Shown piece after piece: positions 25,579-64,000 of a DNA stretch of 64,000 bases. The DNA is from Williamsia sp. DF01-3 (lineage in GTDB: Bacteria; Actinomycetota; Actinomycetes; Mycobacteriales; Mycobacteriaceae): the NCBI RefSeq assembly GCF_023051145.1, contig NZ_JALKFS010000005.1, forward strand, positions 1,798,001 to 1,862,000, given 5' to 3'. The notes under the pieces are model-generated. The model saw nothing but the letters and a program-made list of their open reading frames with translations. It had not been told where the DNA came from and did no database searches. Made by a program: the position numbers and the translations under genes. The stretch's first letter is position 1, and the number at the start of each line of letters is the position of its first letter.

Positions 25579-26274
25579 GGTAAAGGCCCGAGGCGTTACG
25601 TTGCTTTCGGTCCTAGGGTGAGGAACTGGGGTGTTTTGTCCAGGCAGTTCTTGCGGCCTAGGGGCCGGCTGACAAAGCTTGCCTCTGTCGGGTCGCGACA
25701 AGTTTCAACGGGCCTGCACTTTGTAGTAGTCCGACCACGGTGCGAAGCCGCCGTTGATTGGCAGATCAGCATCGCCGAGTCGTCAAGCGAGTCCTGCGCC
25801 GCATGTCTCGACCGAAGCCACGCTCATGTTCGTCCGGCCAGGCCCTGGCGCCGTTCCACGGCGCCGTCGGGCGGATGTCCTTCGACCCTTGAACAGGACT
25901 CCTAGGCCTCGGCCGCCACTTCGATCGTGCTCATCGGTCCGGAGATGCCTGGGCGGCAGTTGCGCGCGTCTACCTATGTCTCTCGAAGCCCTCTGGGCTC
26001 AGAAGGGAGGGAGATGCCATGCACGAAGTCGACGACGGTGTCGTTCATGTAGAGATAGAGGCTTTTTCTTATCGATTGACTCGGCCCTGTGATTAGTATG
26101 GCGATTCGACAGAGGCGATCCTCAACTCTGAAAGTATATGGACGGTCTCAGGTCTGCTCCGACCACCTCACCGGAGTGCACCTCGCGCGAGCTAGGTGCA
26201 GCAGTAACGAAACGGCCCGTTGCGTCGATTTTATGGAAGACAGCATCTCAATGGCAGCAAGGGTAGGCAACTAT
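25579..26274. other. long non-coding stretch
   Basis: About 700 bases with no gene I can support. Open frames here are short and out of codon-usage pattern. Composition becomes more AT-rich toward the caspase-like gene, suggesting a junction of acquired DNA. No repeat, tRNA or attachment-site pair was seen. Confidence 0.45.
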
Positions 26275-34354: not shown

Positions 34355-34837
34355 TCAGCTCTTCGTGCGACTCAACTTCTGAGCGAAATGACCAAGTGCA
34401 GAGGAAGTCTTGGTATACGAGCCGGCCTCTATCAACTCCTCGATCCGTTGCCACGAAATGATTCGTCTGAGCGCGCCACACTGCGACGCGGGATTTTTGC
34501 CGGCGGCCTCGACCGCTGACACGGCGCGTCCGACGGTCTTCGGGTCCTCGCCGAGCGCTTCGGCGAGCCACAGGAGTCCCGCAGCGCACTTGAAGTGGGT
34601 GTAGAAGAACCGAGCGTCGCGATCGAAGCTCTGGCGGTTGTAGAAACCAGGAGAATTGTATTGCCCTAGCCAGCCTTCGACGTGCTCTTTCTGACTCTTA
34701 TACCAAACGTGCCCCCCAAACGCGCCCAGATTGTGACGGCGCTCGTAATCGTCGGTCACGGGGCAACGCTCGGACAGTGAAACAACGATCTTTCTGAGCT
34801 GTTCTGCAGACATGGCTGACTTGGTCACGAAGCCCAT
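34355..34837 (-). CDS. hypothetical protein beside the defence island
   Basis: A 160-residue protein starting ATG 34837 (MGFVTKSAMSAEQLRK); ATG 34813 is an alternative. The sequence 'DYERRHNLGAFGGHVWYKSQ' and 'ARFFYTHFKCAAGLLWLAEA' gives a mixed helical protein with no motif I recognise. It lies divergent from the vsr-led operon, about 260 bases away. It could be a regulator or an unrelated resident gene. Confidence 0.58.
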   Translation of the reverse strand: MGFVTKSAMSAEQLRKIVVSLSERCPVTDDYERRHNLGAFGGHVWYKSQKEHVEGWLGQYNSPGFYNRQSFDRDARFFYTHFKCAAGLLWLAEALGEDPKTVGRAVSAVEAAGKNPASQCGALRRIISWQRIEELIEAGSYTKTSSALGHFAQKLSRTKS

Positions 34838-35096
34838 CGTCGCAGATCGGTTGTGGTGTCGCTCTCGGTTCAAATGAGGGCAATGAATTTGAGGTCGTGT
34901 CAACGGAGGTTCGCCTCAGTTCGAAACGAAGGGGTCAGGGGCCAGGAAAACCGCCTGAAATTGCGCGACTCTGACCGGTTCCACGCGCGCCTGGCGCACG
35001 TGGGGCGTGCTCTTGTAGAACCGCTCGGATGCGCCGGGTCTTGACGCCGCCACCTCTTGCTCATCGATGACTAGAGGTTTGTCGTAGTCTCCGGTG

Positions 35097-35558
35097 ATGG
35101 AGGACGAACAACCGCCCGGGTTTGCCTCCGGTCGGCCGCGTGCATCTTCGGAATCCGTTCGTAGCCGGATGAGTCGTCAGCGTAGAAAGAACACCGCACC
35201 CGAGGTTGAGGTACGCCGCGAGCTGCACGCAAGGGGCGTGCGGTTCCGAACCGATGTCAAACTCGAACGAGATCTACGAACCAGGGCTGACATTGCTTGG
35301 CGTCGGCTGAAACTCGCAATCTTCATCGACGGATGCTTCTGGCACGGCTGCCCCGAACATGCGACGCGGCCCGCCGCGAACGCCGAGTGGTGGGCAGTCA
35401 AGCTGGACGGCAACATTGCCCGTGATCGGCGCACGGACGCGATTCTCGCCGATCGAGGGTGGACGGTGCTCAGATTCTGGGAGCATCAAGCTCCGGCTGA
35501 CGTCGCCGACGCCATAGTCGCAGTTCTCAGGGGCTTGCGGAACGAGGGGAACAGGTGA
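35097..35558 (+). CDS. vsr: Vsr-like very-short-patch-repair endonuclease, first gene of defence operon
   Basis: A 153-residue nuclease. Vsr landmarks are all present: 'RMSRQRRKNTAPEVEVRREL', 'GVRFRTDVKLERDLRTRADI' with the catalytic aspartate in 'RADIAW', then 'IFIDGCFWHGCPEHATRP' with the zinc-binding and histidine residues. 'DRGWTVLRFWEHQ' closes the fold. Classical Vsr nicks T:G mismatches left by deaminated 5-methylcytosine and sits beside a cytosine methylase. None is seen here; the only methylase in the operon has an adenine-type motif. It overlaps the next gene by four bases (GTGA), so it is part of the defence operon. GTG 35094 is an alternative start. Confidence 0.86.
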   Translation: MEDEQPPGFASGRPRASSESVRSRMSRQRRKNTAPEVEVRRELHARGVRFRTDVKLERDLRTRADIAWRRLKLAIFIDGCFWHGCPEHATRPAANAEWWAVKLDGNIARDRRTDAILADRGWTVLRFWEHQAPADVADAIVAVLRGLRNEGNR

Positions 35559-36577
35559 GAAGTAGCCTCAACTACTACAGGTCCCGGCATCTCGGACTGG
35601 ACCAACGATCTCAGTCGATCTTCACGGCGCTTGGCCGGGGAGAGCTCGATATGACGAAGGGCCTGGCTGCGGTCTTGGCTGACTCGCCGTCCTTGGCTGT
35701 CGACCTGATCGAGAAGACCCCTTTGAAGGACGGCGCCCTCAGCGTTGGCGTCGATCTGGATGAGTTGAGGACTTCGACGGACCTGACAGTCGACTCCGAA
35801 GAACGTCAGGTCGCCGGCGTTGGTCCACGTCGGGATCTCGTTCTTCGCTTCCTCCGTGACGGAGCCCGACTCTTGACGGTCATCATTGAAGCCAAACACA
35901 CGGATCTCAAGGCGAACGACACGGTCCTGGACCAACTCGCTGGTTACGTCGACGTCGAGGGCAAGTTGGACATGCAAGACGACCGAAAGGTCGGGCTGAC
36001 GCTCACCAAGGCGCAGCTGGTGCCGGTGTCCGCGGGCATCGCATCGATCACCTGGACCCGCTTGACAGAGATCCTCAGCGCATCGAAGTCGACGCTGGCA
36101 CATCAATTTGCAATGCATGTGAGGGAGAGCATGAGTCTGAAACACTTCGAGGTAGAGGTCTACAGCGTGCCGGCGGCCGGCACTGCAACGGCGATCGAGG
36201 AGCACTTCGTCCATGCGTTTCCGCAGCACTACTCTGCGCCGATTTGCCTGTTCCTGGCACCGCGGCAGGGAGGTGGTGGCGCGATCCCGAAGCTCTACCG
36301 CGTCCTCAAGGTCTATGACGTGTCGGATGCCCAGCTGAAAGAACAGATCGCTCGGATCGACGAAGAGGATCCCGCTGTCGGAGCACGGATGAGGGGCTAC
36401 TTCGCGGATCGGTTGAACGGGACCCTGGTCGCAGACGAACAGCTGCGCGTGTTCGTCCTTGAGCCCAAGCCCATCGTCCTCGAGCACAAACCTCGGCCGA
36501 AGCGGAACAATCCGTTCAAGACGAGCAGATGGTCACTGGCTGACCTGTTGGACAGCTCATCCAAGATTCTGCCCTGA
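35555..36577 (+). CDS. PD-(D/E)XK nuclease-like protein of the defence operon
   Basis: A 340-residue protein with a GTG start overlapping the vsr stop. A PD-(D/E)XK-like core is seen at about residues 88-120: an acidic 'PRRDLVLRFLRDG' strand, then 'LLTVIIEAKHTDLKANDTVL' (E-x-K) and 'QLAGYVDVEGKLDM' on the following helix. The remainder ('AHQFAMHVRESMSLKHFEVE' and later) is of unknown fold, ending in a basic tail 'KPRPKRNNPFKTSRW'. By position it may be the nuclease effector missing from the DISARM set (no DrmC). The nuclease call is inference from motif shape. Confidence 0.65.
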   Translation: MRSSLNYYRSRHLGLDQRSQSIFTALGRGELDMTKGLAAVLADSPSLAVDLIEKTPLKDGALSVGVDLDELRTSTDLTVDSEERQVAGVGPRRDLVLRFLRDGARLLTVIIEAKHTDLKANDTVLDQLAGYVDVEGKLDMQDDRKVGLTLTKAQLVPVSAGIASITWTRLTEILSASKSTLAHQFAMHVRESMSLKHFEVEVYSVPAAGTATAIEEHFVHAFPQHYSAPICLFLAPRQGGGGAIPKLYRVLKVYDVSDAQLKEQIARIDEEDPAVGARMRGYFADRLNGTLVADEQLRVFVLEPKPIVLEHKPRPKRNNPFKTSRWSLADLLDSSSKILP

Positions 36578-36816
36578 GTTTGAGGCGAGTGATGCTATCT
36601 GTTCGCCAGCAACTTGCACAGCCATCGTTCGGACCACAAGAACGTCGTGGCGCCCAGATTGCCTCTGCTGGAGCGAAATTGAGGTGTCGCTGAGCCCCAT
36701 TGTCGGTGTGGGAGGGTAGTAATACATCGAGTGGCTCCGAATCATCGAAGTCAGGGATGCCGCCCGGTCTGAGAAACAACCGCCGCGCAGTCAGGGTCTT
36801 TGAGAGAGTGAAGCTG

Positions 36817-38625
36817 ATGACGGATGTGGTGGCGATCGAGCTCGACGAGGATCAGCGCCGCGTCGTCGAAGCAGACGCCGAAGCGCGTCTCGTGGTGCTC
36901 GCAGGTGCCGGCCAGGGCAAAACCGAGGTAGTCGCGTCACGTATCGCACATCTGATCGACAGCGACGGACTCTCGGCGTCGAGTGAAATCCTCGTCCTGA
37001 GCTTTTCGCGTGCTGCAGTCCACGCCGTGCGAACCAGGCTGGCGGATCGGGACGCCGCCGCAACTGCCAACGTGCGTACGTTCGATTCATTCGCCTCGGT
37101 CCTGCTCCTCGAAGAAGACCAGGAACCCACCGGATCGTTCGAACAGCGAATCCGCCAGGCCACCGAGCTTCTACGAACCGCCGTCGACACCCCGTTTCTT
37201 CTCGATGACCTGCGCCACGTCATCCTCGACGAAGTTCAGGACCTCGTCGGTGACCGAGCTGTCTTCGTCTTGGCGGTCTTGAAGCACCTGGCCGGGGAGG
37301 CGGGATTCACGGTGCTCGGCGATCCGTTGCAGGGCATATACGACTTCGTCCTGGATGAATCCGAAAACGCAACGACGTTCAACGACGTATTGGCGGCACT
37401 GGAGACGGATTTCGACGCTCAGCGGTTGAACCTGACGGGCAACTACCGCGCGCGAGGCGAGGGCCCCCTACGGGTCGCACAGGCTGCGAATGCCCTCCGT
37501 TCAGCCTCGGGGCCGGCCGACGCTTTGCAGACACTTGATTCGCTCGAAGCGTCCCTTCCGAGACGGAGCGAGATCGACGACTGGCACTTCCTCGACACCT
37601 ATCCGGGCAGGTCAGCGGTGCTCTGTCGCAGCAATGCCGACGTGATGCGGGTATCTCGTGAGATGTCTGCGCAGGGCGTGCGGCACGTTGTCCGTAGGCA
37701 GGCTCAGGATTTCGGTGCTGCGCGATGGATTGCGGCATCGCTGTCTGCTCTCGCCGGTCCGGTCGAGACGCGCGATGCCGTCGAGTCCGCCCTGTTCGGC
37801 GCCGCAACTGTCGACACGCCTGACGGTGCTTGGTACCTCCTCAAAGCCGCCGAGGGCGACTTTCGGAAGTACTCCCAGCTCAACATGGGACGGCTCCGGA
37901 CGCGTGTCGGTTCCGGATCAGTGCCCCTGACCTTGACCCAAGGTGACGACGCAGCGATCACCGTCTCCACGGTTCACCGAGCCAAAGGCCTTGAGTTCGA
38001 GAACGTATTGATCGTGGATCAGCGGTACCCGTCGGATGACGAGGATCAGTGGCAAGACGTGCGCCGTCGCTACGTCGCGCTGAGTCGTGCACGTGACAAC
38101 GTCGAGCTTGTGGACATCAGACGGTCGCGGTCGTCGATCAGGTCGGAGGAATGGCTCGACGAGCGCTTGGTGGAGTCCGCGGGCCCGATGGGCAAGCGGC
38201 GTGCGCGCGCCATTGAGTTCCGATCCGGAGACGTCTACAGCGACCGCCCGGTCGCCGGCGGAAACATGGATGCGTCGACAATTCAGAAGACGCTGGCGGA
38301 CCTGCCGAACGGCGCGATCGTCGATGGCGTGATCGACGTCGAACTGTCCAATCGCGAGCGCCCGGTCTACTCGCTCGTCGTTGATGGGAACCCAATTGGG
38401 CGAACCGGCGAGAGCTTTGGCGATGACTTCGCGAAGGCGTTCAAGGTGCGGCGCGGAGTTTGGCCGGCAGAGATCTCCGATCTGATGCTCGTCTCGGTGG
38501 AGACCACGACAGGTGATCCTCGACTGAGCGAGCAGGCAGGTGTGGGTCCCGGCGGGTTCTGGCTGGTGCCGCGCGTGGTCGGACTGGCAAAGCCGATATG
38601 GGAAGTGATGGAGAGAGTCGGATGA
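36817..38625 (+). CDS. SF1 UvrD-like helicase/ATPase, copy 1
   Basis: A 602-residue superfamily 1 ATPase (ATG 36817). Motifs: Q-like 'ELDEDQRRVVEADAEARLVV', an unusual Walker A 'LAGAGQGKTEVVASRI' (residues 28-43, GAGQGKT), motif II 'HVILDEVQDLVGDRAVF' (near 135), motif V 'TVHRAKGLEFENVLIVDQ' (near 387) and motif VI 'YVALSRARDNVELV' (near 419). After the motor come about 170 residues ending 'SVETTTGDPRLSEQAGVGPG' and 'FWLVPRVVG'. The same tail closes the gene at 59508-61303. It is shorter than UvrD and lacks much of the 2B region. Its stop overlaps drmA's start. Probable role: DNA-translocating partner of the defence complex. Confidence 0.82.
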   Translation: MTDVVAIELDEDQRRVVEADAEARLVVLAGAGQGKTEVVASRIAHLIDSDGLSASSEILVLSFSRAAVHAVRTRLADRDAAATANVRTFDSFASVLLLEEDQEPTGSFEQRIRQATELLRTAVDTPFLLDDLRHVILDEVQDLVGDRAVFVLAVLKHLAGEAGFTVLGDPLQGIYDFVLDESENATTFNDVLAALETDFDAQRLNLTGNYRARGEGPLRVAQAANALRSASGPADALQTLDSLEASLPRRSEIDDWHFLDTYPGRSAVLCRSNADVMRVSREMSAQGVRHVVRRQAQDFGAARWIAASLSALAGPVETRDAVESALFGAATVDTPDGAWYLLKAAEGDFRKYSQLNMGRLRTRVGSGSVPLTLTQGDDAAITVSTVHRAKGLEFENVLIVDQRYPSDDEDQWQDVRRRYVALSRARDNVELVDIRRSRSSIRSEEWLDERLVESAGPMGKRRARAIEFRSGDVYSDRPVAGGNMDASTIQKTLADLPNGAIVDGVIDVELSNRERPVYSLVVDGNPIGRTGESFGDDFAKAFKVRRGVWPAEISDLMLVSVETTTGDPRLSEQAGVGPGGFWLVPRVVGLAKPIWEVMERVG

Positions 38626-41600
38626 CTGAAGTGAATCCACTGGATGAGAAGTATCGATTCCGCGGCGAGATGGTCGATGCACTGCGGGTTGATCTCGTCG
38701 GGCCATCGGGTGGCGAAGAGGAACTGATCGAGGAAGCGCCGCTGAGTCGGTACATCGTCGGCGCACTGTGGCCCAAGACCGACGACGAGCCAGATCTCCC
38801 GGACCCGGACAGTGCCGAAGCCGACTCCGAAGCCGCTGACGAAGGCAGCCCTGTCGCCCAAGCGCGCATGCGTTTTCCATCCTCGATGGGGATGACGTTT
38901 TCGGTTCGCGCCACGGCGGGTGCGATCACGATTGCACCGACGGCGGCCCGGTACGAGCTGAAGACGGACGACGACCAGGCCTCGCTCGGCTGGAAACGGA
39001 TTCCACTGAAAGCGCAGTCCTACAGCCAGAAACTGGACAGACCCGGTGTGTACCGCACCGAGGTCGAACCCGGCCTGGAGCTCTACCGATTCGTCCGCCC
39101 AGAGCGGGATGGATCTGTGACGGTGTCGGTTGCGCTCAACAACATCAATACGTCCGTGAAAGGTGACCTCCGAGACGAGGCCTCGTGGTTCCAGGTCGGG
39201 TTCCGGGTCGACACGCACCTCGCGGACATCGTCGACCGAACCGCTCCTCGAAACCTCGGTCACGACGCTGACCTGGACAGCGCAGCGCTCATGTATCGCA
39301 ATGCCTTCAACTACGCGATCGGACACGGATGCAGTGCCGAGTGGGACGCGGACGGCATCATCGACGGCGCTGTGTCGAATGTCGAAACCACGTTCATTCC
39401 GTCGCACGAGGTTCACAGAGCCAGGCCCGGTGCACTCGACGGTGTCGATCTGCGAATGGCATTCTTGGCGGACGCGCCGATAAGTGAAGTCGCCGTCAAC
39501 CTTCGAGCGATGGTCAGCCGATACCGTGATTGGATCACCGGGCTCGTGGCCGGTCTCGAATCGGGTACCGCAGGCGTACCCGACGAACTACTCGGTGTTG
39601 CCGACGGCCACATTCATGAGATGAACCGCGCGGCCGACCGCATCGAGGCAGGCATCCGATTACTAGAGGCCGACGGTGAGGCCGAGCGAGCGTTTCGCCT
39701 GGCCAACCGCTCGATGCAATTGCAGCGAGCACGTCAAGACTGGATTCGATCTGGGACAGAGGGGCCGGTTGGTAATGGCTCGGCCGCTGCATGGCGTCCC
39801 TTCCAGATTGCGTACATCCTCCTCAACCTCCCCGGAATCGCGGACCCGAAGCACGACGACCGCGATGTTGCCGATCTGCTCTGGTTCCCTACCGGCGGCG
39901 GAAAGACGGAGGCGTACCTGGGCCTGGTCGCGTTCGTCATCCTGCTGCGCCGAATTCGGAATTCTTCAGCGATGGGTGTCGCCGTCATCATGCGTTACAC
40001 GCTACGACTGCTGACAATCCAACAGTTCGAGCGGGCATCGATGCTCATGTGCTCGTTGGAGACGGTGCGAAAGGACAACCCAGACCTCGGGGCCGGGAGA
40101 TTCTCGATTGGTCTCTGGGTTGGAGCGGGCGCAACCCCGAACTCGTTGAAGGATGCCAAAGCATCGCTCCGGCGCCTAAAGAATCACGAGGAGCTGGCCG
40201 AGAAGAATCCCGTACAACTCACCCAATGCCCTTGGTGTGGGGCGTTGATGAACCACGAGAACTACTCAGTTCAAACTCGGCCGGAGCAGTACCTTCGAAT
40301 CGCCTGCGGAACACCGACGTGCGATTTCCGTGATGGACTACCCGTTCACGTGGTCGACGAAGACGTCTATCGCGCACGGCCCGAACTGGTCCTCGGAACA
40401 GTCGACAAGTTCGCGATGATGGCCTGGAATGAGAACGTAGGCAAGCTTTTCGCGCGTGACGGCGAAGGATCCCCTCCGGCGCTGATCATCCAGGATGAGC
40501 TGCACCTCATCTCGGGACCTCTGGGGTCGATGGTCGGACTGTACGAGACTGCGGTCGACGCTGCGTGCACGATAACGACGGTGAGCGACGAGGCAAATCG
40601 CGCACGGCCGAAGGTGATCGCGTCAACAGCGACCATCAGGCGTGCAGAAAAGCAGATCCAGTCGGTGTTCGCCCGCCGGGCAGCACTGTTCCCTCCGCCT
40701 GGGATAGATCCGGATCAGTCGTTCTTCGCCGAACCCGCAACCCGAGATGAGTTGGGCACCAGGCGATACGTCGGTGTGATGGCATCCGGTACCAGCCACG
40801 CAACACTCTTGGTCCGCGTCTACGCTGCGCTACTACAAGCGGCCGCCGACGTGGAGGGCGAGGATGCAACCCGCGATCCGTACTGGACCCTGTTGGGCTA
40901 CTTCAACAGTCTCCGAGTTCTGGGTAGTGCGAATCTTCAGGTCGAAGGCGATGTCCGCGAACGCCTGGGCGTGGTCGCCGGCAGGTCCAACTCGTCGAAA
41001 CGCGAACTCGGCGCGATAAATGAGCTCACCAGCCGTGTTCCCTCTCCGGAGATCCCTGAGCGTCTGAAAGCCTTGGAGCGCAGGCTCGGCGGCCCTGTGG
41101 CGCCTGACGACGTCGTGCTGGCCACAAACATGATCTCTGTCGGTGTCGACATCGACCGGCTGGGGCTCATGACGGTGATGGGACAACCGCAAGCCAGCGC
41201 GGAGTACATCCAAGCGACAAGTCGTGTCGGCCGCCAGCACCCGGGCCTCGTCGTGACAATCTTCAACTCGGCGCGATCGCGTGACCGCTCGCACTACGAG
41301 AGTTTCCGGCCATTCCATCAGGCCCTCTATCGGGCGGTCGAAGCAACGAGCGCAACGCCATTCGCTGCCCGCGCACGGGACAGGGGCCTTCACGGCGTAC
41401 TGGTGGCGATGGCCAGGCTGCTCATACCGGAGCTGGCAGGCAACGACTCGGCGTATCTCGCCGGAGAATATTGGGACGATCTCCGAGAGCTCGCGACCCT
41501 CATCGAAGGGAGGGTTGCGCTGGTCGACAAAGGCGAGTTGGACGCGACGTGTGACGAGGTCGATGCTCTGCTGGACGTGTGGTCGAAAGCCGGCGATGAG

Positions 41601-41786
41601 CGGCCATACATGAAGTACCAGAACAAGAATCGCGAAGCAGCGTTGATGATCCGGCCAGAAGACGCCCTGACAGACGACGACATCGAGTACTCGCAGCGAG
41701 AGGTCCCGTGGCCGACGTTGCAGAGTATGCGAGATGTGGACGCTGAAAGCACGCTGTATCAGATCCCGATGAAGAGGAAGTCATGA
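38622..41786 (+). CDS. drmA: DISARM DrmA helicase
   Basis: A 1,054-residue SF2-type helicase of the DISARM core. Walker A is 'LLWFPTGGGKTEAYLGLVAF' near residue 423. The DExH-type motif is 'LIIQDELHLISGPLGSMVG' near 624. 'KVIASTATIRRAEKQ' is motif III. Motifs V/VI are 'ATNMISVGVDIDRLGLMTV' and 'YIQATSRVGRQHPG' near 865, the form seen in DrmA proteins. A four-cysteine cluster lies at 'QCPWCGALM' and 'IACGTPTCDF' (near 540-570). It starts within the stop of the upstream UvrD-like gene and ends within drmB's start. In DISARM, DrmA and DrmB form a complex that loads on invading DNA. Confidence 0.93.
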   Translation: MTEVNPLDEKYRFRGEMVDALRVDLVGPSGGEEELIEEAPLSRYIVGALWPKTDDEPDLPDPDSAEADSEAADEGSPVAQARMRFPSSMGMTFSVRATAGAITIAPTAARYELKTDDDQASLGWKRIPLKAQSYSQKLDRPGVYRTEVEPGLELYRFVRPERDGSVTVSVALNNINTSVKGDLRDEASWFQVGFRVDTHLADIVDRTAPRNLGHDADLDSAALMYRNAFNYAIGHGCSAEWDADGIIDGAVSNVETTFIPSHEVHRARPGALDGVDLRMAFLADAPISEVAVNLRAMVSRYRDWITGLVAGLESGTAGVPDELLGVADGHIHEMNRAADRIEAGIRLLEADGEAERAFRLANRSMQLQRARQDWIRSGTEGPVGNGSAAAWRPFQIAYILLNLPGIADPKHDDRDVADLLWFPTGGGKTEAYLGLVAFVILLRRIRNSSAMGVAVIMRYTLRLLTIQQFERASMLMCSLETVRKDNPDLGAGRFSIGLWVGAGATPNSLKDAKASLRRLKNHEELAEKNPVQLTQCPWCGALMNHENYSVQTRPEQYLRIACGTPTCDFRDGLPVHVVDEDVYRARPELVLGTVDKFAMMAWNENVGKLFARDGEGSPPALIIQDELHLISGPLGSMVGLYETAVDAACTITTVSDEANRARPKVIASTATIRRAEKQIQSVFARRAALFPPPGIDPDQSFFAEPATRDELGTRRYVGVMASGTSHATLLVRVYAALLQAAADVEGEDATRDPYWTLLGYFNSLRVLGSANLQVEGDVRERLGVVAGRSNSSKRELGAINELTSRVPSPEIPERLKALERRLGGPVAPDDVVLATNMISVGVDIDRLGLMTVMGQPQASAEYIQATSRVGRQHPGLVVTIFNSARSRDRSHYESFRPFHQALYRAVEATSATPFAARARDRGLHGVLVAMARLLIPELAGNDSAYLAGEYWDDLRELATLIEGRVALVDKGELDATCDEVDALLDVWSKAGDERPYMKYQNKNREAALMIRPEDALTDDDIEYSQREVPWPTLQSMRDVDAESTLYQIPMKRKS

Positions 41787-43510
41787 GCGCCGCAGATCCA
41801 AAGGCCCGCCGCAGCCAACTTCTGAGCACCTACGGTATCGGTGGCCTTTTCCCCTCCGAGACTTCGAGTTTCATGATCGTCGGACTCGACGAGTGGAAAG
41901 AGGACCGGGCGCCGGTGGTGAGTGAACCGCGTCTTGCACGTTCCCTGGGCGTACAGGAGCTGAAGTCGCCGCCCGCGGGAGGTCGGCGGGATGTTCCAGT
42001 CGTTCGCTTCCCCCGGACCCAAATCTGTCCTGCGTGTCGAAAGATCGGTACCAACCATGAGCTGGGTGGCGACTGGAACGCCTCGAACTGCAGGTGCAAA
42101 GACAAAGCTGCACTCTCTCCGTTTCGTCTGATCACCGCTTGCCCTCGCGGTCACATCGACGAGTTTCCTTTCTTCCGGTGGTTGCACAAGAGTCATTCGG
42201 TCACGCCAGGCGACAAGCACAAGATGAAAATGGTGTCGTTGGGCAAAACATCATCCTTGAACGACCTTGTCTTGCAGTGCAGCTGCGATGTTCCTGACAG
42301 GACTTTGGACGGCGCTTCGACGGCAAAAGCCATGGCCGGGGTGATCACGTGCAGCGGCCTTCGGCCCTGGCTAGGACTGGACCACACGGAGCAGTGCGGT
42401 GAGACGCCGCGCGTACTCCAGCGTGGCGCGTCCAATGTGTGGTTTCCCGCCGTTCGTTCTGCGATCTCGATTCCGCCGTATTCGGAGGCGCTCGCAAAGT
42501 TCGTCGACCGACACTGGGCGGCTTTCGAGGACCCCGAAGCCGTCACGGAACCACTCCTGAAGAGCATTGCGAAGCGATCGCACGGCCGCTTCACCGTCGA
42601 CCAGATCGTCGCCGAGATCGAACGTCGGCGCAACGACGAAAAAAACGGCGACCTGGGCGAGGAAGAGCTGCGGCGCCAAGAATATGGTGCCCTCGTCGAA
42701 GGGCGCGAGGAGACCCGCGACGAGTCCGACTTCGTCTGCGAGATCGTCCCTCCGGACGGTCATCTTCCCAGCGAGGTTCCGGACCTCATCACGGGGCTAC
42801 GTAAAGTCACTCGGCTCCGTGAGGTGCGGGCGCTTAACGGATTCACCCGTCTGAGTGGTTCGGCCGATGCGCTGTGCACGCTGTCCGCCGAGCCCAAGTA
42901 CTGGTTGCCTGCCATCGAAGTCATCGGCGAAGGGATCTTCATGGCAATGGATCCTGAATTGTTGAAGACCTGGGCGGCCACGTCGTTTGCGAGGCGGCGG
43001 CAGAAGCTATTGCAGGGTGCTGCAGATCGGCACGCGGCTGCGTTTGACCGGGCCGCCGAGAAGGTGGATATCGCCAAGGTGGCAGTCCACACGTTCGCGC
43101 ACGTGCTGATCGATCAGTTGTCTCTGGACGCCGGCTACCCCGCATCGTCTCTTCGCGAACGCCTTTTTGTGGACAACGACATGGCCGGGCTGCTCATCTA
43201 CACGGCGAGCTCCGACTCGGCAGGCAGCCTGGGCGGAGTGGCATCACAGGCAGACCCCGATCATTTTGTTGCCGCTGTCCGAGAGGGCCTCACCCGGCTC
43301 TCGTGGTGCTCCTCGGATCCGGTCTGCATCGAGTCCACCGCGTCGGGCACCGATGCACTGAACCTCGCTGCCTGCCATGCATGTGTGCTGGCGCCGGAGA
43401 CCTCATGCGAGTTGAACAACACCTACCTCGACCGGGCTCTCCTGTTCGGCACCCACGATGATGGTGACGAGGACGCCGGTCTGTTCAGCGGGTACCTGGC
43501 GCACGCATAG
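41783..43510 (+). CDS. drmB: DISARM DrmB (DUF1998) protein
   Basis: A 575-residue DUF1998 protein that starts inside the drmA stop. The N-terminal 'LLSTYGIGGLFPSETSSFMI' is typical of DrmB. A zinc cluster is formed by 'TQICPACRKIG' near residue 82, 'SNCRCKDKAALSPF' and 'LITACPRGHIDEFPFFRWLH'. The C-terminal DUF1998 region has 'VHTFAHVLIDQLSLDAGYPA' near 435, 'LLIYTASSDSAGSLGGV' and 'NLAACHACVLAPETSC'. Known role: partner of DrmA, proposed to gate DNA entry in the complex. The order drmA-drmB is the DISARM core. Confidence 0.92.
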   Translation: MSAADPKARRSQLLSTYGIGGLFPSETSSFMIVGLDEWKEDRAPVVSEPRLARSLGVQELKSPPAGGRRDVPVVRFPRTQICPACRKIGTNHELGGDWNASNCRCKDKAALSPFRLITACPRGHIDEFPFFRWLHKSHSVTPGDKHKMKMVSLGKTSSLNDLVLQCSCDVPDRTLDGASTAKAMAGVITCSGLRPWLGLDHTEQCGETPRVLQRGASNVWFPAVRSAISIPPYSEALAKFVDRHWAAFEDPEAVTEPLLKSIAKRSHGRFTVDQIVAEIERRRNDEKNGDLGEEELRRQEYGALVEGREETRDESDFVCEIVPPDGHLPSEVPDLITGLRKVTRLREVRALNGFTRLSGSADALCTLSAEPKYWLPAIEVIGEGIFMAMDPELLKTWAATSFARRRQKLLQGAADRHAAAFDRAAEKVDIAKVAVHTFAHVLIDQLSLDAGYPASSLRERLFVDNDMAGLLIYTASSDSAGSLGGVASQADPDHFVAAVREGLTRLSWCSSDPVCIESTASGTDALNLAACHACVLAPETSCELNNTYLDRALLFGTHDDGDEDAGLFSGYLAHA

Positions 43511-43544
43511 ATTTACGGTCGACTCAAGCATAGGGAGACAGACG

Positions 43545-46361: not shown

Positions 46362-46365
46362 TCCC

Positions 46366-57000: not shown

Positions 57001-57346
57001 GCTGTCGTTGGTCTCTGCCGGTAGAACCGACTTCGCATTCAAGATGTCTGACGAATGGGAACAAGTCGTCAAGTACACCGATCCTGCGGCGTCGGAGGTC
57101 ATCGATGTGCTGGCACGGACTGACGTGCCGGTGCCTGAACCTGGTGCCGAAGTGGGGCCTGACGAGTCGGTGTGGCAGGTGGAGATGGCGTGGGAGGAGC
57201 CGAGAGTTGCGGTGGTCCTCGACGTCGACGAAAACCGGGACCGATGGTTGTCTGAGAACGCATGGCACGTCTTCCGGGTCGACGGCGAGGACGGTGGTTC
57301 CACCGCGGGTCAGGTTGTTGAAATGGTGAAGGGAGGGCGAGCATGA
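51080..57346 (+). CDS. DruE-like giant DEAD/DEAH helicase with DUF1998 region and nuclease-like C-terminus
   Basis: A 2,088-residue protein. SF2 motifs: Walker A '[20 protein letters not shown]' near residue 108, '[19 protein letters not shown]' near 235, '[12 protein letters not shown]' near 275, and '[18 protein letters not shown]' near 1033. Zinc-type cysteine pairs recur ('YCRVCGRSG' near 493, 'CPSCAARN' near 580, 'CPVCHHV' near 913, 'CPDCGWG' and 'CPRCHS' near 1330, '[10 protein letters not shown]' near 1454). The DUF1998/MrfA-like cluster is '[19 protein letters not shown]' near 1592. Residues about 1715-1790 look like a Vsr/DUF559 nuclease: '[20 protein letters not shown]', '[20 protein letters not shown]', 'VWSISWDDV'. 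Size and order match DruE of Druantia rather than any DISARM core gene. It overlaps the genes on both sides by four bases. Confidence 0.85.
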
Positions 57347-59511
57347 CCAAGTACGTACAGATGCACGAGTTGTTCCAGGACTCGTACGGAAAGCTCGACG
57401 GCAGCATCAAGTCGCGTGTTCTGAACTTCATGGTGAAGTTGCAGCAAGATCCCGATGGGACAGGTCTCGACTTCAAGAAGCCCAGAGGAGCCACGAACAA
57501 GTACATCCGGACTGCACGGGTGACTGACAACTATCGCGCGGTGTTGCTGGACCCGGGCGGAGACAGCGAATCCGACTCCACGCTCTACCTGGTGGCGGTG
57601 AAGAAGCACGATGACGCCTACGCATTGGCTGAATCGCTCACGGCTGAGGTGAACGCCAGGACTGGCGCAGCAGAGATCTATGATCCCATCGCCCTCAAGA
57701 AGGCGATCGACGATGCCCCGACGAAGGTGGCCAAGGGCCCCAAGCCCTATATGCCGGCGTCGGTGCGGCAGAGCGACCTGGAACGTTTTGGTGTGGCGGC
57801 TGAGATCGCAAAGAAGCTCAAAGTGGTTGTGGGAGAATCGCCGTTCCTCGCCATTGCCGAGGCGCTACCGAGCACTCAGGGAAGCGCCGTCCTCGACCTC
57901 GCGTTCGGCAAGAGTCCCGACGAGGTCTGGAGTGACCATGCAATCGACGATTCGGGCCCCATCGACGTCGAAGATATGCAAGGTGCGCTGAAACGCCCTG
58001 TCTCCAGGCTGAGTTTCACCGCGGCGGATGCAGACAACGAGGCCGAACTCCGCGCTGTGCTAGAAGGCGATTTCGCGAAGTGGCGCGTATGGCTTCATCC
58101 GCTGCAGCGGAAGCTGGCCCTGCACGACGGTTGGAACGGACCGTTTCGGGTCACCGGCGGCGCGGGAACCGGCAAGACCGTGACTGCGATTCACCGGGTC
58201 CGCCACCTCGCCGAGCGATTGGAATCGGAAGAAACCTCGAAAAAGGTTCTGCTGACGACGTATACAAGGAACCTGGTCCGCGCCATCGAGGCCCAGCTGG
58301 TGCAACTCGCGGGACCGGACATCACGAAGCGGGTCGACATCCTGAATGTGGACGCGTTGGCGCGGGCAATCGTCTCTGCCACCGATGCCGGACGAACCCT
58401 GGTCAACCACTCGACGCTCGTTCAGGACGATGACGGCAAGGTGGCCGAACTCTGGAAGACTGCGGCCTATGTCGCGAGCGGCACCTGGGATCCCGCGTTT
58501 CTGAATGAAGAATGGTCCCTGGTTGTGCTGGGCAATTCGATCGAGGACGAGACCGGGTATCTACGGGTAGCTCGGAGCGGGCGGTCGCAGCGGCTGAGCC
58601 GTCCGCAGCGTGCGGACGTCTGGAAGGTGATCGAACAATTCCAGCGCCTTATGCGTGCGGAAGGACTGATCACCTTCACGGAGTTGGCTGCTCGGGCCGC
58701 GGCTGCGCTACATGGTGATCCGAAACTGCGCGACCAGTTCAACTATCGGCACGCAGTTGTCGATGAGGCGCAGGACTTGCATCCGGCGCACTGGAAGATG
58801 CTGCGTACGTTGATCAAAGAGGGCACCGATGATCTCTTCATCGTCGGTGATGCACACCAACGGATCTACGGGAGGCCGACTCCGCTCTCACGGTATGGGA
58901 TCGAGACACGCGGCCGGTCACGGCGCCTGACGATCAACTACCGGACCAGCCGCGAAATCCTGAAGTGGACACTTCTCGTCGCAGATCCCGAGGTGGACGA
59001 TCTCGATGTCGAGTCGGATTCGCTTGCCGGAGCACGGTCGGTGTTTGGCGGACCTGAGCCCGAGCGTCTTGAGTTTGCCAACGAAGCGAAGGAGAATCAG
59101 GGCATCGCCGCGACGGTGAAGGCCTGGCAGGCTGAAGGGCTCAGCTCGGGCGATATTGCTGTCTTCACGTACGAAAAGCGAAATGCTGAAGCCATCTCCG
59201 GCGCTCTGACCAGCGAGGGGATCTCGAACAGTATTGTCGGTGCAGACACCCGCGAGGAGAAGCTCGGCGACGTGGTCAGAGTGATGACGATGCACCGCGC
59301 CAAGGGACTTGAGTATCGAGGCGTAATCCTCGCTCGGCTGGGCGACAAACACTTTCCGCCGCACTACATTGCGAATAAGACCGGACCTGAGTTCGAGCGA
59401 GAGCTGAAGAAGCTCCGAAGTGTTCTGTACGTTGCCGGCTCAAGGGCTCGTGAGCGCATGGCGGTCACCCACGCAGGCCCGCCGACGGAGCTGCTGGGTG
59501 CGGCGGGATGA
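57343..59511 (+). CDS. RelE-like toxin domain fused to UvrD-family helicase
   Basis: A 722-residue fusion. Residues 1-100 look like a RelE/HigB-fold mRNA interferase: 'YGKLDGSIKSRVLNFMVKLQ', 'RTARVTDNYRAVLLDPGG' and the closing 'YLVAVKKHDDAYALAE' with the H-x3-Y typical of the fold. A helical linker follows, then an SF1 motor: Walker A 'FRVTGGAGTGKTVTAIHRV' near 270, motif II 'HAVVDEAQDLHPAHWKM' near 472, 'FIVGDAHQRIYG', motif V 'MTMHRAKGLEYRGVILARLG' near 650 and motif VI 'LYVAGSRARERMAV'. It starts in the stop of the giant helicase gene and ends in the start of the next UvrD gene. The domain could cut ribosome-bound mRNA or serve as a binding module; activity is untested. Confidence 0.82.
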   Translation: MTKYVQMHELFQDSYGKLDGSIKSRVLNFMVKLQQDPDGTGLDFKKPRGATNKYIRTARVTDNYRAVLLDPGGDSESDSTLYLVAVKKHDDAYALAESLTAEVNARTGAAEIYDPIALKKAIDDAPTKVAKGPKPYMPASVRQSDLERFGVAAEIAKKLKVVVGESPFLAIAEALPSTQGSAVLDLAFGKSPDEVWSDHAIDDSGPIDVEDMQGALKRPVSRLSFTAADADNEAELRAVLEGDFAKWRVWLHPLQRKLALHDGWNGPFRVTGGAGTGKTVTAIHRVRHLAERLESEETSKKVLLTTYTRNLVRAIEAQLVQLAGPDITKRVDILNVDALARAIVSATDAGRTLVNHSTLVQDDDGKVAELWKTAAYVASGTWDPAFLNEEWSLVVLGNSIEDETGYLRVARSGRSQRLSRPQRADVWKVIEQFQRLMRAEGLITFTELAARAAAALHGDPKLRDQFNYRHAVVDEAQDLHPAHWKMLRTLIKEGTDDLFIVGDAHQRIYGRPTPLSRYGIETRGRSRRLTINYRTSREILKWTLLVADPEVDDLDVESDSLAGARSVFGGPEPERLEFANEAKENQGIAATVKAWQAEGLSSGDIAVFTYEKRNAEAISGALTSEGISNSIVGADTREEKLGDVVRVMTMHRAKGLEYRGVILARLGDKHFPPHYIANKTGPEFERELKKLRSVLYVAGSRARERMAVTHAGPPTELLGAAG

Positions 59512-61303
59512 CAGGTTCGGAGTCCGGGGCCATCGAACTCAACCCCGAGCAGGCAGCTGTTGCCGAGGCGCCCGCGGACTCGCGGCTGCTGGTGATCGCC
59601 GGCGCCGGCCAGGGGAAAACCGAGGTCGTCGCGTCCAGGGTTGAGCACTTGGCAACCGAGGAAGGTCTGTCGCCGTCTACCGAGATGCTGGTGCTGAGTT
59701 TCTCACGTGCGGCGGTGCATGCTGTCCGCTCGCGTATCGCGAATCGTGAGATGGCGGAGACCAATGTGCGTACGTTCGACTCATTCGCCTCTTACCTGTT
59801 GGTCGAGAATGACATCGAGCCGGTGGGAGACTTCGAGAGTCGCATCAGGCAGGCGACAAAGCTACTCAGCGATGGAGACGACGACATCTACGGTGTCGAG
59901 GATATCCAGCACGTCATCCTCGACGAGGTCCAGGATCTCGTAGGTGATCGCGCCGAGATGGTGTTGGCAATCCTAGAAAATCTGCACGAAGACGCGGGAT
60001 TCACAGCGCTCGGTGATCCACTACAGGCTGTCTACGACTTCACACTCGCCAACTCTCGTAGCAAGACGACGTCGACCCAGTTCATCACGGCATTGACCGA
60101 TCGATTCAACGCCGAACGGGTCTCGTTGGGGCCGAATTACAGAGCGCGCGGTGCCTTCCCAAAGCGAGTCGTCTCCCTGGGGAATGTGCTTCGCGAGGAT
60201 CATGTTGTCGCCGGGGCTCAACAGCGGATCAAGACGTTCGAAGACACCCTTCCGCACTCGGGCGTCGTCGATGATTGGGGTTTCCTGCGTGAGCCGGCAG
60301 GCAAGACCGCCATCCTGTGCAAGTCAAACGCTGAGGTACTGAGGGTCTCGCGTGTGCTGACGAAACACGATGTCAGACACGTGGTCAGGCGCCAAGCCAC
60401 CGATTTCGGCGCTGCAAGGTGGATAGCCGGAGTCTTGGCCCCCTTGCCGGCCCTGACGTCAGCCGAACCGATATCGAGTTTGCGGCAGACCAATTGACGT
60501 CGTCAGCCCTCGAGAGTGACGAAGTCTGGTACCTCCTGAAGGGAGCCGAAGCCAACAAGCGCTCACTGCACCAGCTCAACCTCAATCGTGTGCGGGAGAA
60601 GATCAGGGCAGGCACAATCCCGTTGACGCTCACGCAGCCGGATTCGGCGGACGTCATCGTTTCGACGATTCATCGGGCCAAAGGTCTTGAGTTCGAGAGA
60701 ATATTCTTCGTTCATCCCAACTTCACCCATGAAGACGGTGATGCGTGGGCAGAGATTCGCGAACGATATGTGGCGCTGAGCCGAGCGCGGGATGACGTCG
60801 GGGTCATCGACATCCCGAACGAGTGGTCTTGGTTCGAGAACAGACAAGGCCGTCAGCGTGAACGAAAGAAGAGCAAGCAGAAGAAGTCGTACACCGCGTC
60901 GTTCGAGTTTCAATCCCGCGACGTGGCAACCGAATCACCGATGTTCGGCGACATTTCGCGGTCTGCTGCTATTCAAGATGCCCTCGTGGCGCTCGACCCC
61001 GGCACCGACCTGTCGGCACGCTTCGAAACGATGATGAATGACGACGTACCGGTCTTCACCCTCGTGACTCCAAAGGGTTTCGAAGTTGGCCAGACCAGCG
61101 AAGTGTTCGGGAGGACCATCGACTATGAGTTCGGCTATCGATACAAGGACGGGTGGGAGGGCGTAGCTGTTCGCGGCCTGAAACTCGTCTCCGTAGAGAC
61201 GGCCGCGGGCGACCCCAGGTTCACCGAAGAGGCGGGACTCGGCAGCTCGGGCTTCTGGTTGGTTCCTCGAGTTGGTGGCCTGGCGGTCCCGTACGAGGCC
61301 TGA
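59508..61303 (+). pseudogene. SF1 UvrD-like helicase/ATPase, copy 2, interrupted by one frameshift
   Basis: Frame one starts ATG/TTG-region at 59508 (MTGSESGAIELNPEQAAVAE) and stops at 60497; the rest is in another frame to 61303. Adding one C to the CCCCC run near 60440 restores '...GVLAPLAGPDVSRTDIEF' and a 598-residue protein collinear with the one at 36817-38625. Shared elements: Walker A 'IAGAGQGKTEVVASRV' near residue 30, 'ILDEVQDLVGDRAE', 'TIHRAKGLEFERIFFV', 'YVALSRARDDVGVID', and the tail 'SVETAAGDPRFTEEAGLGSS' with 'FWLVPRVGGLAVP'. It is the last gene of the operon. Break is probably a sequencing error, given identical breaks elsewhere in the window; otherwise this copy is dead. Confidence 0.85.
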
Positions 61304-61305
61304 GA

Positions 61306-63663
61306 TCACTTCTTGTTCCGGCGAAATCGCTCTCGAACCTGCTCCAGGGTTTCGTTGGTCCGTTCGAGCCGCCAGTCTTTCCACCCGTTTCTGCTGTTTC
61401 CTACGACGTTCGACAGCGCTCCAGACGGGCTGGCGAACTCGCGTCCGCCGACCACGAACCTACCTTCGCGCCCGATGCTTGCTCTGAAGGAAAGCCCTTT
61501 GCGAGGTTGATCGTGATATACCTGATCGCCCTCCTCGAGGTAACCGGCAATGATCAGCTGCTGCATTGTCTCGTCATGCGTGATGCGAGTTCGGCCGTCT
61601 GATTCGGACTGCTCCGGCTCGGTCCACGCGGTAGCTGGTTGTTCGGCGTGCTCTGCCTCCTGCTCTGCGGATTCGGGTGCGGGGATGGCGCCGGCGGTCT
61701 TCTCGATGTAGAGGTCGCCATTCACTTCTCGGAACACGTAGCCGTCGGCCGGGTCGGCAGAAAGTGCCGCCAGTAGTTCGTCATGAATGGGCGTTTCTTC
61801 GATTGGTACCGTCTCCTCGACACGGGACACGGTGCCCGTCGGCATGCCCGTGAAGAACCCCCGAATCCCGCTCCACATCGAGTTGACCCAGTCCGAGTCG
61901 TCCGTCGCGCCGGGGTCTTTGGCAGCCGAGTCGCCTGTCGGTTGCTTGACCACGGTGTGGGGGTGCGGCCAACAACGAACGAAGCCCTCCGCGAGGTTTG
62001 CTCCGCGAGCGGTGAGTTCTACCTCGGTCAGGTCGTCTGGCAGGTAAGCATCGATGAGCAGCATGGAGCTGTCGAAAAACTCCCGGCGCTCCTCCCAGTG
62101 AGCCGCGGATGCCAAACCTTTCGGCCGCGGAGTCGATATCAGTGAGAGGTTCCCGATCGACCCCCGCGAATCGTCGGAAACCGTTCCGTCTGCCACCAGT
62201 AGCGGCACCACGTCATGGTTGATCAGGTCAGTGGGTGCGGTTGTGCCCGCGTCGATTCGCAGGCCGTGTTCACATCCGCGAAGGATCAGTCGAGTCCGGG
62301 CTCGCGTGAGTTGTTTGAAGATCGGAGCGGTAACCAGCGCCTCACGAATTTCGTCATCGGTGGGCCAGCGCCCGGATTCGGAGGTGTTCGAGAGCAGGAA
62401 CTCCCGAACCGCGGGCGCGTATGGAGCTTCGGACCGTTTGAGTACCTGCAGCAGGTCGAGGAGCATGCGGTTGTAGTTCTTGCTTGTCGAGCGGAGCACC
62501 GCCCGTCGCACCAACCACGATTCGATGTACCCGAACGCTTGCGTCCGGTCTTCCCTGGCTGCGTGGTGGTCGAGAAACAGCACCACCGGCGAGATGACCG
62601 ATGTGTCCAGCACGTCGGCGGTCTCGAGTAGTTGGTTGTGCTCGCCGTCCGCCGATCGGTCGACTATCTCGCGGTAAAGATCGCTGTTTTCCGCGATCTC
62701 GCGGGTCAGGTCGACCAGCTGATCACGGGTCATTCCACCGGCGAGTTCCTTGAATCGGGTGAAGAGCGACGTGGCCAAGACTTCGTTACCGGTTCGCATG
62801 GTGAGAAAGTGAGCGAAGAAGGCGTCCAGGCGCGACCTGATCAGGCGACCTTGGCGTATGTCTTGCTGCCAGAAGGGTGTCTCCAACCGGCGCCAGTGCT
62901 CGTCGAAAATGCGTTCAACGTCTGCGCCGTGACGCTCGAGCATCTGGAAGAGGGAGTTCTTCACCAGATCACTGGGCAACAGCGGAGTGCCCCGGTCGTT
63001 CAAACTCTCGAAGATGACTTGTGCGTTGTCGTTACCGGTGAGTTCGATGACGACCAACTGCAGACCGACACGTAAGACCTTGACCAGGTTGGTGACCCGC
63101 TGGGGATCTGTTTCTGCTTCGTCGAGCCACACCATGGCGGCCTCGTAGAAGTAGTCGAAGGCATCACGCAACCGAGAATCGCCATCGATGGTGTTGTCGT
63201 CGCCGGGTTCAGCGCTGTCGACAATGGATTTCAGGGCGGCACGATCGCGGAGCGTCGGCCAGACCTTGTACGAGGCGTATTCAGCGTCCGAGAGCGCGTC
63301 CTCGTTGCGCGTCATCCGGGTCAGAGTTGCTACCTGCTTGGTGTCGGCTCCGGCCGTCACCAGTGCGTCACGAACTGCGCAGAGGACAACCTGGAGCGTG
63401 GTAACCCGTTGTTGTCCGTCGATCACCTGCCGAATACTGAGGTCCGCGGAGTCCTTTTCGCTGCTGTCGAGGACGACCGCACCCAGGAAATGCGGTTCTG
63501 AATCCGGGTCAGTCGAAAATGCGTCGACCATTGTGAGGATGTCAGCCCATAGCGGTTCCCAATTCTTGACGCGGTTCCACACGTAGGGTCGCTGGAATAC
63601 GGGGACCACAAGGCACTGCTCGCCTTCGAACAGCTGGCGGATGCGTTGCGCCCGAGCTTCCAT
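61306..63663 (-). CDS. DUF262 (GmrS-like) protein with C-terminal RAMA domain
   Basis: A 785-residue protein. The DUF262 ParB-like NTPase motifs are 'CLVVPVFQRPYVWNRVKNWE' (residues 17-36) and 'IRQVIDGQQRVTTLQVV' near 77. A middle region has 'SIGNLSLISTPRPKGLASAA', the position of the DUF1524 HNH part of GmrSD, but the expected EHxxPQ is only seen as 'INHDVVPLLV', so the nuclease may be degenerate. After an acidic low-complexity linker, residues about 690-785 form a RAMA domain: 'QQLIIAGYLEEGDQVYHDQP' and 'FASPSGALSNVVGNSRNGWK'. RAMA domains accompany restriction and adenine methylase systems. It converges on the operon end with two bases between stops and diverges from the next helicase. Likely role: modified-DNA restriction. 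Confidence 0.85.
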   Translation of the reverse strand: MEARAQRIRQLFEGEQCLVVPVFQRPYVWNRVKNWEPLWADILTMVDAFSTDPDSEPHFLGAVVLDSSEKDSADLSIRQVIDGQQRVTTLQVVLCAVRDALVTAGADTKQVATLTRMTRNEDALSDAEYASYKVWPTLRDRAALKSIVDSAEPGDDNTIDGDSRLRDAFDYFYEAAMVWLDEAETDPQRVTNLVKVLRVGLQLVVIELTGNDNAQVIFESLNDRGTPLLPSDLVKNSLFQMLERHGADVERIFDEHWRRLETPFWQQDIRQGRLIRSRLDAFFAHFLTMRTGNEVLATSLFTRFKELAGGMTRDQLVDLTREIAENSDLYREIVDRSADGEHNQLLETADVLDTSVISPVVLFLDHHAAREDRTQAFGYIESWLVRRAVLRSTSKNYNRMLLDLLQVLKRSEAPYAPAVREFLLSNTSESGRWPTDDEIREALVTAPIFKQLTRARTRLILRGCEHGLRIDAGTTAPTDLINHDVVPLLVADGTVSDDSRGSIGNLSLISTPRPKGLASAAHWEERREFFDSSMLLIDAYLPDDLTEVELTARGANLAEGFVRCWPHPHTVVKQPTGDSAAKDPGATDDSDWVNSMWSGIRGFFTGMPTGTVSRVEETVPIEETPIHDELLAALSADPADGYVFREVNGDLYIEKTAGAIPAPESAEQEAEHAEQPATAWTEPEQSESDGRTRITHDETMQQLIIAGYLEEGDQVYHDQPRKGLSFRASIGREGRFVVGGREFASPSGALSNVVGNSRNGWKDWRLERTNETLEQVRERFRRNKK

Positions 63664-63745
63664 CTTTTGTCATCCCCGTCGGTATCTATTGATCTAATGG
63701 CTTGAAGATCAACCTATCGGACCAGGACGACATGGGAGGCCCGGA

Positions 63746-64000
63746 TTGGACACGCTCGCGATAGCCATGCTGCGTGAGTTGAGGCGTGTCGGCGCGCTCG
63801 CCTCGGAAGACTTGGCCGCGCGACTCCAACAGCCGCTCGAACTGGTCCAGCGCGAATTGCTCGGCAACGACTTCGTGTTCTCGCCGAGCGGGGGAGAACG
63901 GAAGTGGTCGGTGATCGGCCCGGCCGAGTTCGCCGCAGCTCTGCAGATGCGCCGGCAACTGCGACCATGGCAAGTGGACGCAATGCAGGAATGGTTGGTC
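63746..64000 (+). CDS. winged-helix helicase-like protein, N-terminal part (runs off right edge)
   Basis: A TTG start at 63746 has GGGAGG six bases upstream. The frame is open to the window edge (85 residues). Residues 1-70 look like a winged helix ('MLRELRRVGALASEDLAARL', 'LVQRELLGNDFVFSPSGGER'). They are followed by 'RRQLRPWQVDAMQEWLV', the start of a helicase Q-motif region. It is divergent from the DUF262-RAMA gene, with 82 bases between starts. It extends the defence island rightward. The helicase class is not determinable from this part. Confidence 0.65.
   Translation, partial: MDTLAIAMLRELRRVGALASEDLAARLQQPLELVQRELLGNDFVFSPSGGERKWSVIGPAEFAAALQMRRQLRPWQVDAMQEWLV

Follow-up and report, generated by a model that had tools for sequence, protein, structure and literature searches.

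A UvrD-DrmAB cassette joined to an ARMADA type II gene set in a Williamsia gene run that recurs in other genera

Analysis of a 64,000-nucleotide stretch of Williamsia sp. DF01-3 (contig NZ_JALKFS010000005.1, positions 1,798,001 to 1,862,000; hereafter the window, whose own numbering is used throughout) revealed an ARMADA type II gene set joined to a UvrD-DrmAB cassette as one gene run and inherited unit, with a second UvrD gene added and a predicted role in direct attack on phage DNA. We give this reading a probability of roughly 0.6. What can be observed in the sequence comprises the gene identities, their order across genera, the single clade formed by the joined ArmA proteins, and the retention of residues tested in Escherichia coli. 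The locus was read as a hybrid variant of ARMADA type II, itself new, whose component systems are known, and no description of UvrD-DrmAB joined to ARMADA was found in the searched literature, although supplements may hold one.

The run occupied positions 35094-61303 of the plus strand and, judged by open reading frames (ORFs), Pfam, and PADLOC, held most of the gene kinds first listed in a sequence-only reading that had proposed a merger of class 1 DISARM and a DruE-like helicase. The ten-gene run of that proposal is real, with 12 ORFs accounting for the ten genes as armB and UvrD-b are each broken into two, but it does not continue to position 64000, since 61306-63663 holds a minus-strand GmrSD-type gene outside the operon. 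The order was vsr, a gene for a 340-residue protein, UvrD-a, drmA, drmB, armA, armB (two frames), armC, armD, and UvrD-b (two frames). That the genes are mostly joined by 4-base overlaps was borne out by five such ORF overlaps, between vsr and the 340-residue gene (35555-35558), drmA and drmB (41783-41786), armB and armC (51080-51083), armC and armD (57343-57346), and armD and UvrD-b (59508-59511). With starts trimmed to those of homologues, UvrD-a and drmA would also overlap by 4 bases (ATG at 38622, stop codon ending at 38625) and a gap of 4 bases would separate armA from armB. The overlap taken as coupling of the methylase gene to the giant helicase gene exists, but the overlapping ORF is only the distal piece of the broken armB. 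The motor proteins numbered six (UvrD-a, DrmA, ArmA, ArmC, ArmD, and UvrD-b) rather than the four or five suggested. A basic scan of 34700-37000 for promoters and terminators gave no promoter on the plus strand and no terminator excess, other promoter types escaping such scans.

ARMADA type II was described in a preprint from E. coli NCTC 12900 and ATCC 8739 as a strictly ordered set of ArmA (BrxHII/RapA-like), ArmB (PglX-like methylase), ArmC (YprA-like helicase carrying a Vsr nuclease at its C-terminus), and ArmD (GajB-like helicase with a fused RelE-like domain), and protection in E. coli is reported there as direct, non-abortive, and dependent on all four genes (Bell et al., 2025; PMC12458937). 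Compared with the ATCC 8739 locus used in that work, the window proteins showed 30-35% identity over most of each protein. The armA gene (43458-46361, plus strand, as are all genes of the run), which probably starts slightly downstream of 43458, encodes a Swi2/Snf2 RapA-like helicase (35% identity, 490 bits). The proximal piece of armB (46327-49746) encodes a PglX-like N6-adenine methyltransferase with GxG and NPPW motifs (35%, 598 bits) and covers positions 4-1116 of the 1532-position PADLOC profile PDLC03611, which the distal piece (49707-51083, other frame, 185 bits) continues over positions 1121-1529; ArmA was hence followed by ArmB at 43458-51083 as in the ARMADA type II order, with armB lying in two frames. 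The armC product (51080-57346, 713 bits) is a 2088-residue YprA/DruE-like superfamily 2 (SF2) helicase with Pfam DEAD, Helicase_C, and MZB domains and a C-terminal Vsr-type nuclease motif, and armD (57343-59511, 325 bits) encodes a 722-residue GajB-like UvrD helicase (PF00580, 2.6e-27) that is 33% identical to E. coli ArmD over residues 2-720, including the N-terminal region termed RelE-like in the preprint. All eight mutation-tested catalytic positions were kept (ArmA K166 and D266, ArmB G577 and N946, ArmC K113 and D236, ArmD K278 and D474); according to the preprint the mutants were made in NCTC 12900 (PMC12458937), and the same positions were read in ATCC 8739, where they coincide with the expected motifs. 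Residues D1718, D1736, H1741, D1752, and R1756 of ArmC were identical in 20/20 sequences and K1755 in 19/20, a conserved motif that points to a Vsr-type nuclease at the ArmC C-terminus. Pfam supported the UvrD part of the earlier "RelE-UvrD" label and did not call RelE in ArmD, so that the RelE-like label would rest on homology to E. coli ArmD. By homology, armA-armB-armC-armD is a complete ARMADA type II gene set in the expected order.

The conserved core of the first half begins with UvrD-a (36817-38625; ORF opening at 36700, likely start ATG 36817), a superfamily 1 (SF1) helicase (PF00580, 1.1e-21) that carries an unassigned C-terminal domain and whose homologue precedes drmA in 12/12 loci of the lineage. 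It is followed by drmA (38622-41786; ORF 38598-41786), encoding a YprA-family SF2 helicase (PADLOC DrmA, 3.5e-239; PDB 7s9v, 2.1e-163), and by drmB (41783-43510), encoding its DUF1998/MZB partner (PADLOC DrmB, 1.6e-65; PF09369, 7.8e-08). Alignment showed that the window DrmA lacks the N-terminal ~130 residues of long DISARM-like DrmA and keeps the acidic loop and the SMRDV motif; the EVE-like N-terminal part of class 1 DISARM DrmA is absent from it. The first ~130 reference positions were filled at 0.06-0.08 in 23 rows of the lineage versus 0.91-0.99 in 50 DISARM-like rows, the latter chosen from 68 by a length of 1280-1345 residues. On these sequence features and a DrmA tree, drmA-drmB belong to an actinobacterial DrmAB lineage. 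A separate observation was a 1545-residue protein (L047, 621-5258) with a TmtA-like N-terminus by PADLOC, a Sacsin-like match below the Pfam cut-off, and a C-terminal SF2 helicase, which itself or as a relative lies upstream of UvrD-drmA-drmB in 8/12 lineage loci and suggests, together with these three genes, an older four-gene DISARM-like system.

The order UvrD-drmA-drmB-armA-armB-armC-armD was found in eight loci, the window and seven others (G347, G282 of Gordonia aichiensis, G239, G080 of Prescottella agglutinans, G378 of Mycolicibacterium setense, M. peregrinum, and Tsukamurella tyrosinosolvens), and its recurrence in other genera argues that the gene run is not a product of chance; G239 may belong to the same genus as Tsukamurella, given the near-matching identities of the two loci. 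UvrD-b is the last gene of the joined unit in G347, G282, G239, Tsukamurella, and the window; in P. agglutinans and the two Mycolicibacterium loci, none was seen behind armD. ArmA (E<=1e-100) was matched in 67/401 genomes of the family sample, six of them, the own genome included, at 71-100% identity and the other 61 at no more than 55%. All six genomes of this matching group carry drmAB directly before armA, so that the junction is not confined to one genome and the refuting condition named in the earlier reading, occurrence in this genome alone, does not hold. A class sample of 394 genomes added no ArmA match above 57% (this one partial), and the best near full-length match (54%, G508) came with ArmABCD at 46-58% and no DrmAB match within 19 kb upstream. 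A tree built from 53 ArmA and DrmD proteins grouped the seven joined loci in one clade and the DISARM-like rows in a second, each with a Shimodaira-Hasegawa-like approximate likelihood ratio test (SH-aLRT) support of 100 and with a long branch between them; the tree was a quick one that sampled 25 of the 46 usable DISARM-like rows and placed E. coli on a long branch. The idea that plasmids carry the joined unit was rejected, as ArmA was matched in 27 plasmid records and only one exceeded 60% identity, and that record, Tsukamurella "plasmid 10", was read as probably chromosomal from its rnc, mutM, and smc genes. Together, these sequence comparisons supported one co-inherited hybrid unit.

Five loci (G004, Nocardia acidivorans, N. 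vulneris, G362, and G298) lack armABC and keep an intact armD within ~3 kb of drmB. Three of them, G004 from the genus of the window and the two Nocardia, have armD 7 to 115 bases after drmB by ORF ends and gave no ArmA match at E<=1e-100. In the ArmD tree these three and the seven joined loci made up one clade (100/100) with the three nested inside at two places, and a tree forcing the seven joined ArmD together was rejected by the approximately unbiased test (p-AU 0.002). The G362 locus, with armD 0.7 kb from drmB, is collinear with G465 save for ~15.2 kb holding armABC. In G298, armD lies 3 kb from drmB with Dcm between, and the UvrD-drmAB genes share 98% DNA identity with those of G201 (L195 and L225 versus L193 and L223), which has ARMADA type II downstream where G298 has armD alone. 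Collinearity between the two holds until just within armA and returns at armD; identity drops in steps along the way (98%, 88%, 72%), and G298 is therefore a mosaic pointing to recent exchange rather than a simple deletion. Ratios of nonsynonymous to synonymous substitution (dN/dS) for armD pairs were 0.06-0.19, synonymous divergence being near saturation in several. The pattern was read as armD being useful beside drmAB in the absence of armABC, and other selection on a leftover gene could also produce it. Such loci amount to natural deletion experiments on which parts can cooperate.

The merger of class 1 DISARM with a DruE-like helicase first proposed for this locus is now highly improbable. 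In its favor are the presence of drmA and drmB and the appearance of DrmD and DrmMI models in the PADLOC matches to the two genes that follow. These two genes, once labeled drmD and drmMI, score much higher against E. coli ArmA and ArmB than against the DrmD-place and DrmMI-place genes of loci L078-L145 (at most 174 bits in 53 loci with a match and at most 113 bits in 52, respectively, versus 490 and 598), those loci being DISARM-like by DrmA, DrmB, and gene order, drmC aside; DrmMI and ArmB were set apart by score alone. No drmC, the phospholipase-D nuclease gene, was among the matches listed for the operon proteins, the own genome has four PLDc_2 matches, all of them outside the window, and the gene order differs. 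Class 1 DISARM was rejected on the unseen drmC, the ArmA tree, the truncated DrmA N-terminus, and the ArmA/ArmB scores. The giant helicase, taken for a Druantia component, scored 115 bits in its best piece against the neighboring E. coli DruE versus 713 against E. coli ArmC, by which Druantia was also ruled out.

A rather unlikely but stronger competitor holds that UvrD-DrmAB and ARMADA type II are two independent defenses placed in one operon for co-expression or co-transfer, each hitting phage DNA alone. In favor of the joined unit, DrmA of the close lineage (at least 60% identity) was present in 18/401 family genomes, including the own genome and the contig fragment G355, and ArmA occurred in 12 of these 18 compared with 55 among the remaining 383 genomes (odds ratio 11.9, p 1.6e-6); adding the 45-50% lineage (11 matches) gave 16/28 versus 51/373 (odds ratio 8.4, p 4e-7), the DrmA and ArmA searches apparently sharing one draw of 401 genomes. 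All 12 close pairs have DrmAB and ArmA together in one direction, six joined and the rest 0.6 to ~11 kb apart. The ArmA proteins of G295a/G465 and of G201/G013/G212/G358 came from branches outside the joined clade, from which we conclude that the close DrmAB lineage met ARMADA type II more than once, and a distant DrmAB (29 and 34%) likewise lies ahead of armA in G104. Defense genes cluster in general, and the association is therefore support for the joined unit rather than proof. Several points weigh against a joined unit: these tests ignore kinship and the identity threshold was chosen once the list had been seen; in 6/12 pairs drmB and armA are separated by other sequence, which often includes a dcm gene; 55 of the 67 ArmA genomes in the family sample are without close-lineage DrmA; and drmB has no full armA behind it in 11/11 loci read from the 45-50% lineage, one of which (G071) has a 184-residue ArmA piece there. 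The two halves could be two defenses on a shared promoter, and, given their occurrence apart, a strictly single system, as claimed originally, may not apply, while one co-inherited hybrid unit stands. Independence is further favored by the frequent nearness of another YprA-family helicase to ARMADA type II, with ArmC-like matches other than armC in the fetched flanks of 6/15 relatives, and by the E. coli ATCC 8739 locus, where two genes lying 223 bp ahead of armA, and in its direction, are counted as Druantia III by the preprint, which also reports synergy of separate systems (PMC12458937). It is disfavored by the overlaps or tiny gaps throughout the window unit, by the single clade of joined ArmA, and by armD remaining near drmAB after armABC has gone.

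It is possible, if a minority view, that the local cluster is a decaying and inactive remnant whose gene order records past function, which is compatible with the joined-unit reading. The armB frame is broken at ~49.69-49.72 kb and that of UvrD-b near 60.44 kb, so that the local copy may be inactive or misassembled, which again speaks against the favored interpretation; the armC of T. tyrosinosolvens NCTC13231 is also annotated as two genes (L216, 27529-33788). For comparison, UvrD-b is one ORF of 597-603 residues in G347, G282, and G239. Against decay, the six other joined loci compared have armB as a single ORF, and the eight tested catalytic positions are intact in the window. Among 27 other rows (E. 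coli included, and RhodMAG and G358 being one contig counted twice), armB was a single ORF in 25, which rules out a programmed frameshift as a shared feature; the exceptions were G025, rearranged by inversion, and G201, whose fetched stretch ends inside the gene. Both breaks sit in G- or C-rich runs by eye and may be assembly errors, and they concern the local copy only. Five of the ten other window ORFs scanned match their Pfam family almost end to end, indicating that breaks are not spread across the window. Either assembly error or real decay may underlie the breaks at armB and UvrD-b.

For the joined unit, recurrence makes a functional pairing look likelier than an accidental one, and DrmAB and ARMADA may act jointly on phage DNA. 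Protection would consist in attacking phage DNA directly, on entry or during replication, without host suicide. The DrmAB complex of Serratia is reported to be activated by 5'-overhang DNA and to be less active on methylated DNA (PMC9142583). DrmAB with UvrD-a could recognize exposed ends, load on single-stranded ends, and hand the substrate to the ARMADA machine, in which ArmA and ArmC would translocate and the Vsr-type domain of ArmC would cut, replacing the absent DrmC. ArmB would mark or check self DNA via adenine methylation, standing in for DrmMI, and ArmD with UvrD-b would process unwound strands. As ArmA and ArmB occupy the places of DrmD and DrmMI in DISARM, the hybrid would regain functions that the DrmAB cassette is without. 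ArmD may work with DrmAB as well as with ArmC, given that its gene persists next to drmAB in loci devoid of armABC. A bolder and tentative extension is a single machine of seven or eight proteins in which two YprA motors, the split DrmA-DrmB and the one-piece ArmC, share ArmA, ArmB, and ArmD, with UvrD-DrmA-DrmB-ArmD as a minimal system, ArmD as common effector, and the armABC block moving in and out. ARMADA was earlier proposed as a link between DISARM and Druantia from shared gene families, and a DISARM-type DrmAB inside an ARMADA operon in several genera offers a natural test of two cooperating YprA-family motors on one phage DNA.

The remaining genes of the run are less conserved. A stand-alone Vsr-type nicking endonuclease gene, vsr (35094-35558; PF03852, 5.8e-15; PADLOC Vsr, 4.9e-12), is an accessory gene that also lies directly upstream of UvrD-a in Gordonia and G004 (77, 72, and 66% identity in G347, G282, and G004). 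It overlaps the 340-residue gene (35555-36577), and the two sit ~239 nt before UvrD-a if the latter starts at ATG 36817. The earlier assignment of this protein as PD-(D/E)XK-like found no backing in Pfam (none at E<=1) or PADLOC (none at E<=0.1), its homologue was absent from all compared regions, and relatedness to a Tsukamurella gene at a similar place was compared and rejected. At the other end, UvrD-b, a paralogue of UvrD-a, comprises a proximal (59508-60497; PF00580, 4.6e-24) and a distal piece (60419-61303; PF13538, 6.7e-09). The minus-strand GmrSD_N and RAMA gene (61306-63663; PF03235, 9.8e-33; PF18755, 9.2e-13) is convergent with UvrD-b and two bases away; its counterpart is immediately convergent in G347 (59%), lies ~1-3.5 kb past UvrD-b in G282 (60%), G239 (56%), and Tsukamurella (56%), and is 45% identical in G004. 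Past the window follow a large helicase-like plus-strand ORF (by eye), a minus-strand Dcm-type cytosine methylase gene (L062, 3742-4857, ~66742-67857 in window numbering) whose product is 57% identical to a Dcm near another lineage locus, and metabolic-looking genes; vsr stands at the opposite end of the island from the Dcm-type gene. Upstream of the operon, a DUF6642 gene (26089-26889, plus strand) and a DUF4268 gene (27212-28180, minus strand) are perhaps further island genes. Among the relatives, the ARMADA type II loci of G033 (L033/L048) and G025 (L036/L051) carry a second, inverted copy of the ArmB C-terminal part beside armB, the armB of G025 being split by inversion, which looks like an invertible specificity module for phase variation.

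Compared with known systems, the window shares with Gabija the PADLOC GajB models that are top matches of UvrD-a, UvrD-b, and ArmD and differs in that no GajA nuclease was among the matches listed for the operon proteins. Class 1 DISARM, as in the Serratia DrmAB (PDB 7s9v; PMC9142583), has in common with it the DrmA and DrmB homologues, the acidic loop, and the SMR(D/E)V motif, together with a Vsr or Dcm gene nearby in some loci (vsr in 24/68 and dcm in 16/68 DISARM-like loci). The window differs from it in having no DrmC among the matches listed for the operon, in ArmB and ArmA as the methylase and Swi2/Snf2 genes, in drmA-drmB coming first, and in a DrmA ~250 residues shorter than the DISARM-like median. 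With Druantia III (DruH-DruE) it shares a YprA-family giant helicase, although no DruH was among the operon matches listed and ArmC is nearer to E. coli ArmC than to DruE; in E. coli ATCC 8739, Druantia III lies directly upstream of armA, the slot held here by DrmAB. From ARMADA type II the window departs by UvrD-drmA-drmB ahead in one gene run, a second UvrD behind, and a broken armB, and it resembles that system in the same four genes in the same order, the tested positions kept, and a Vsr-type motif near the C-terminus of ArmC.

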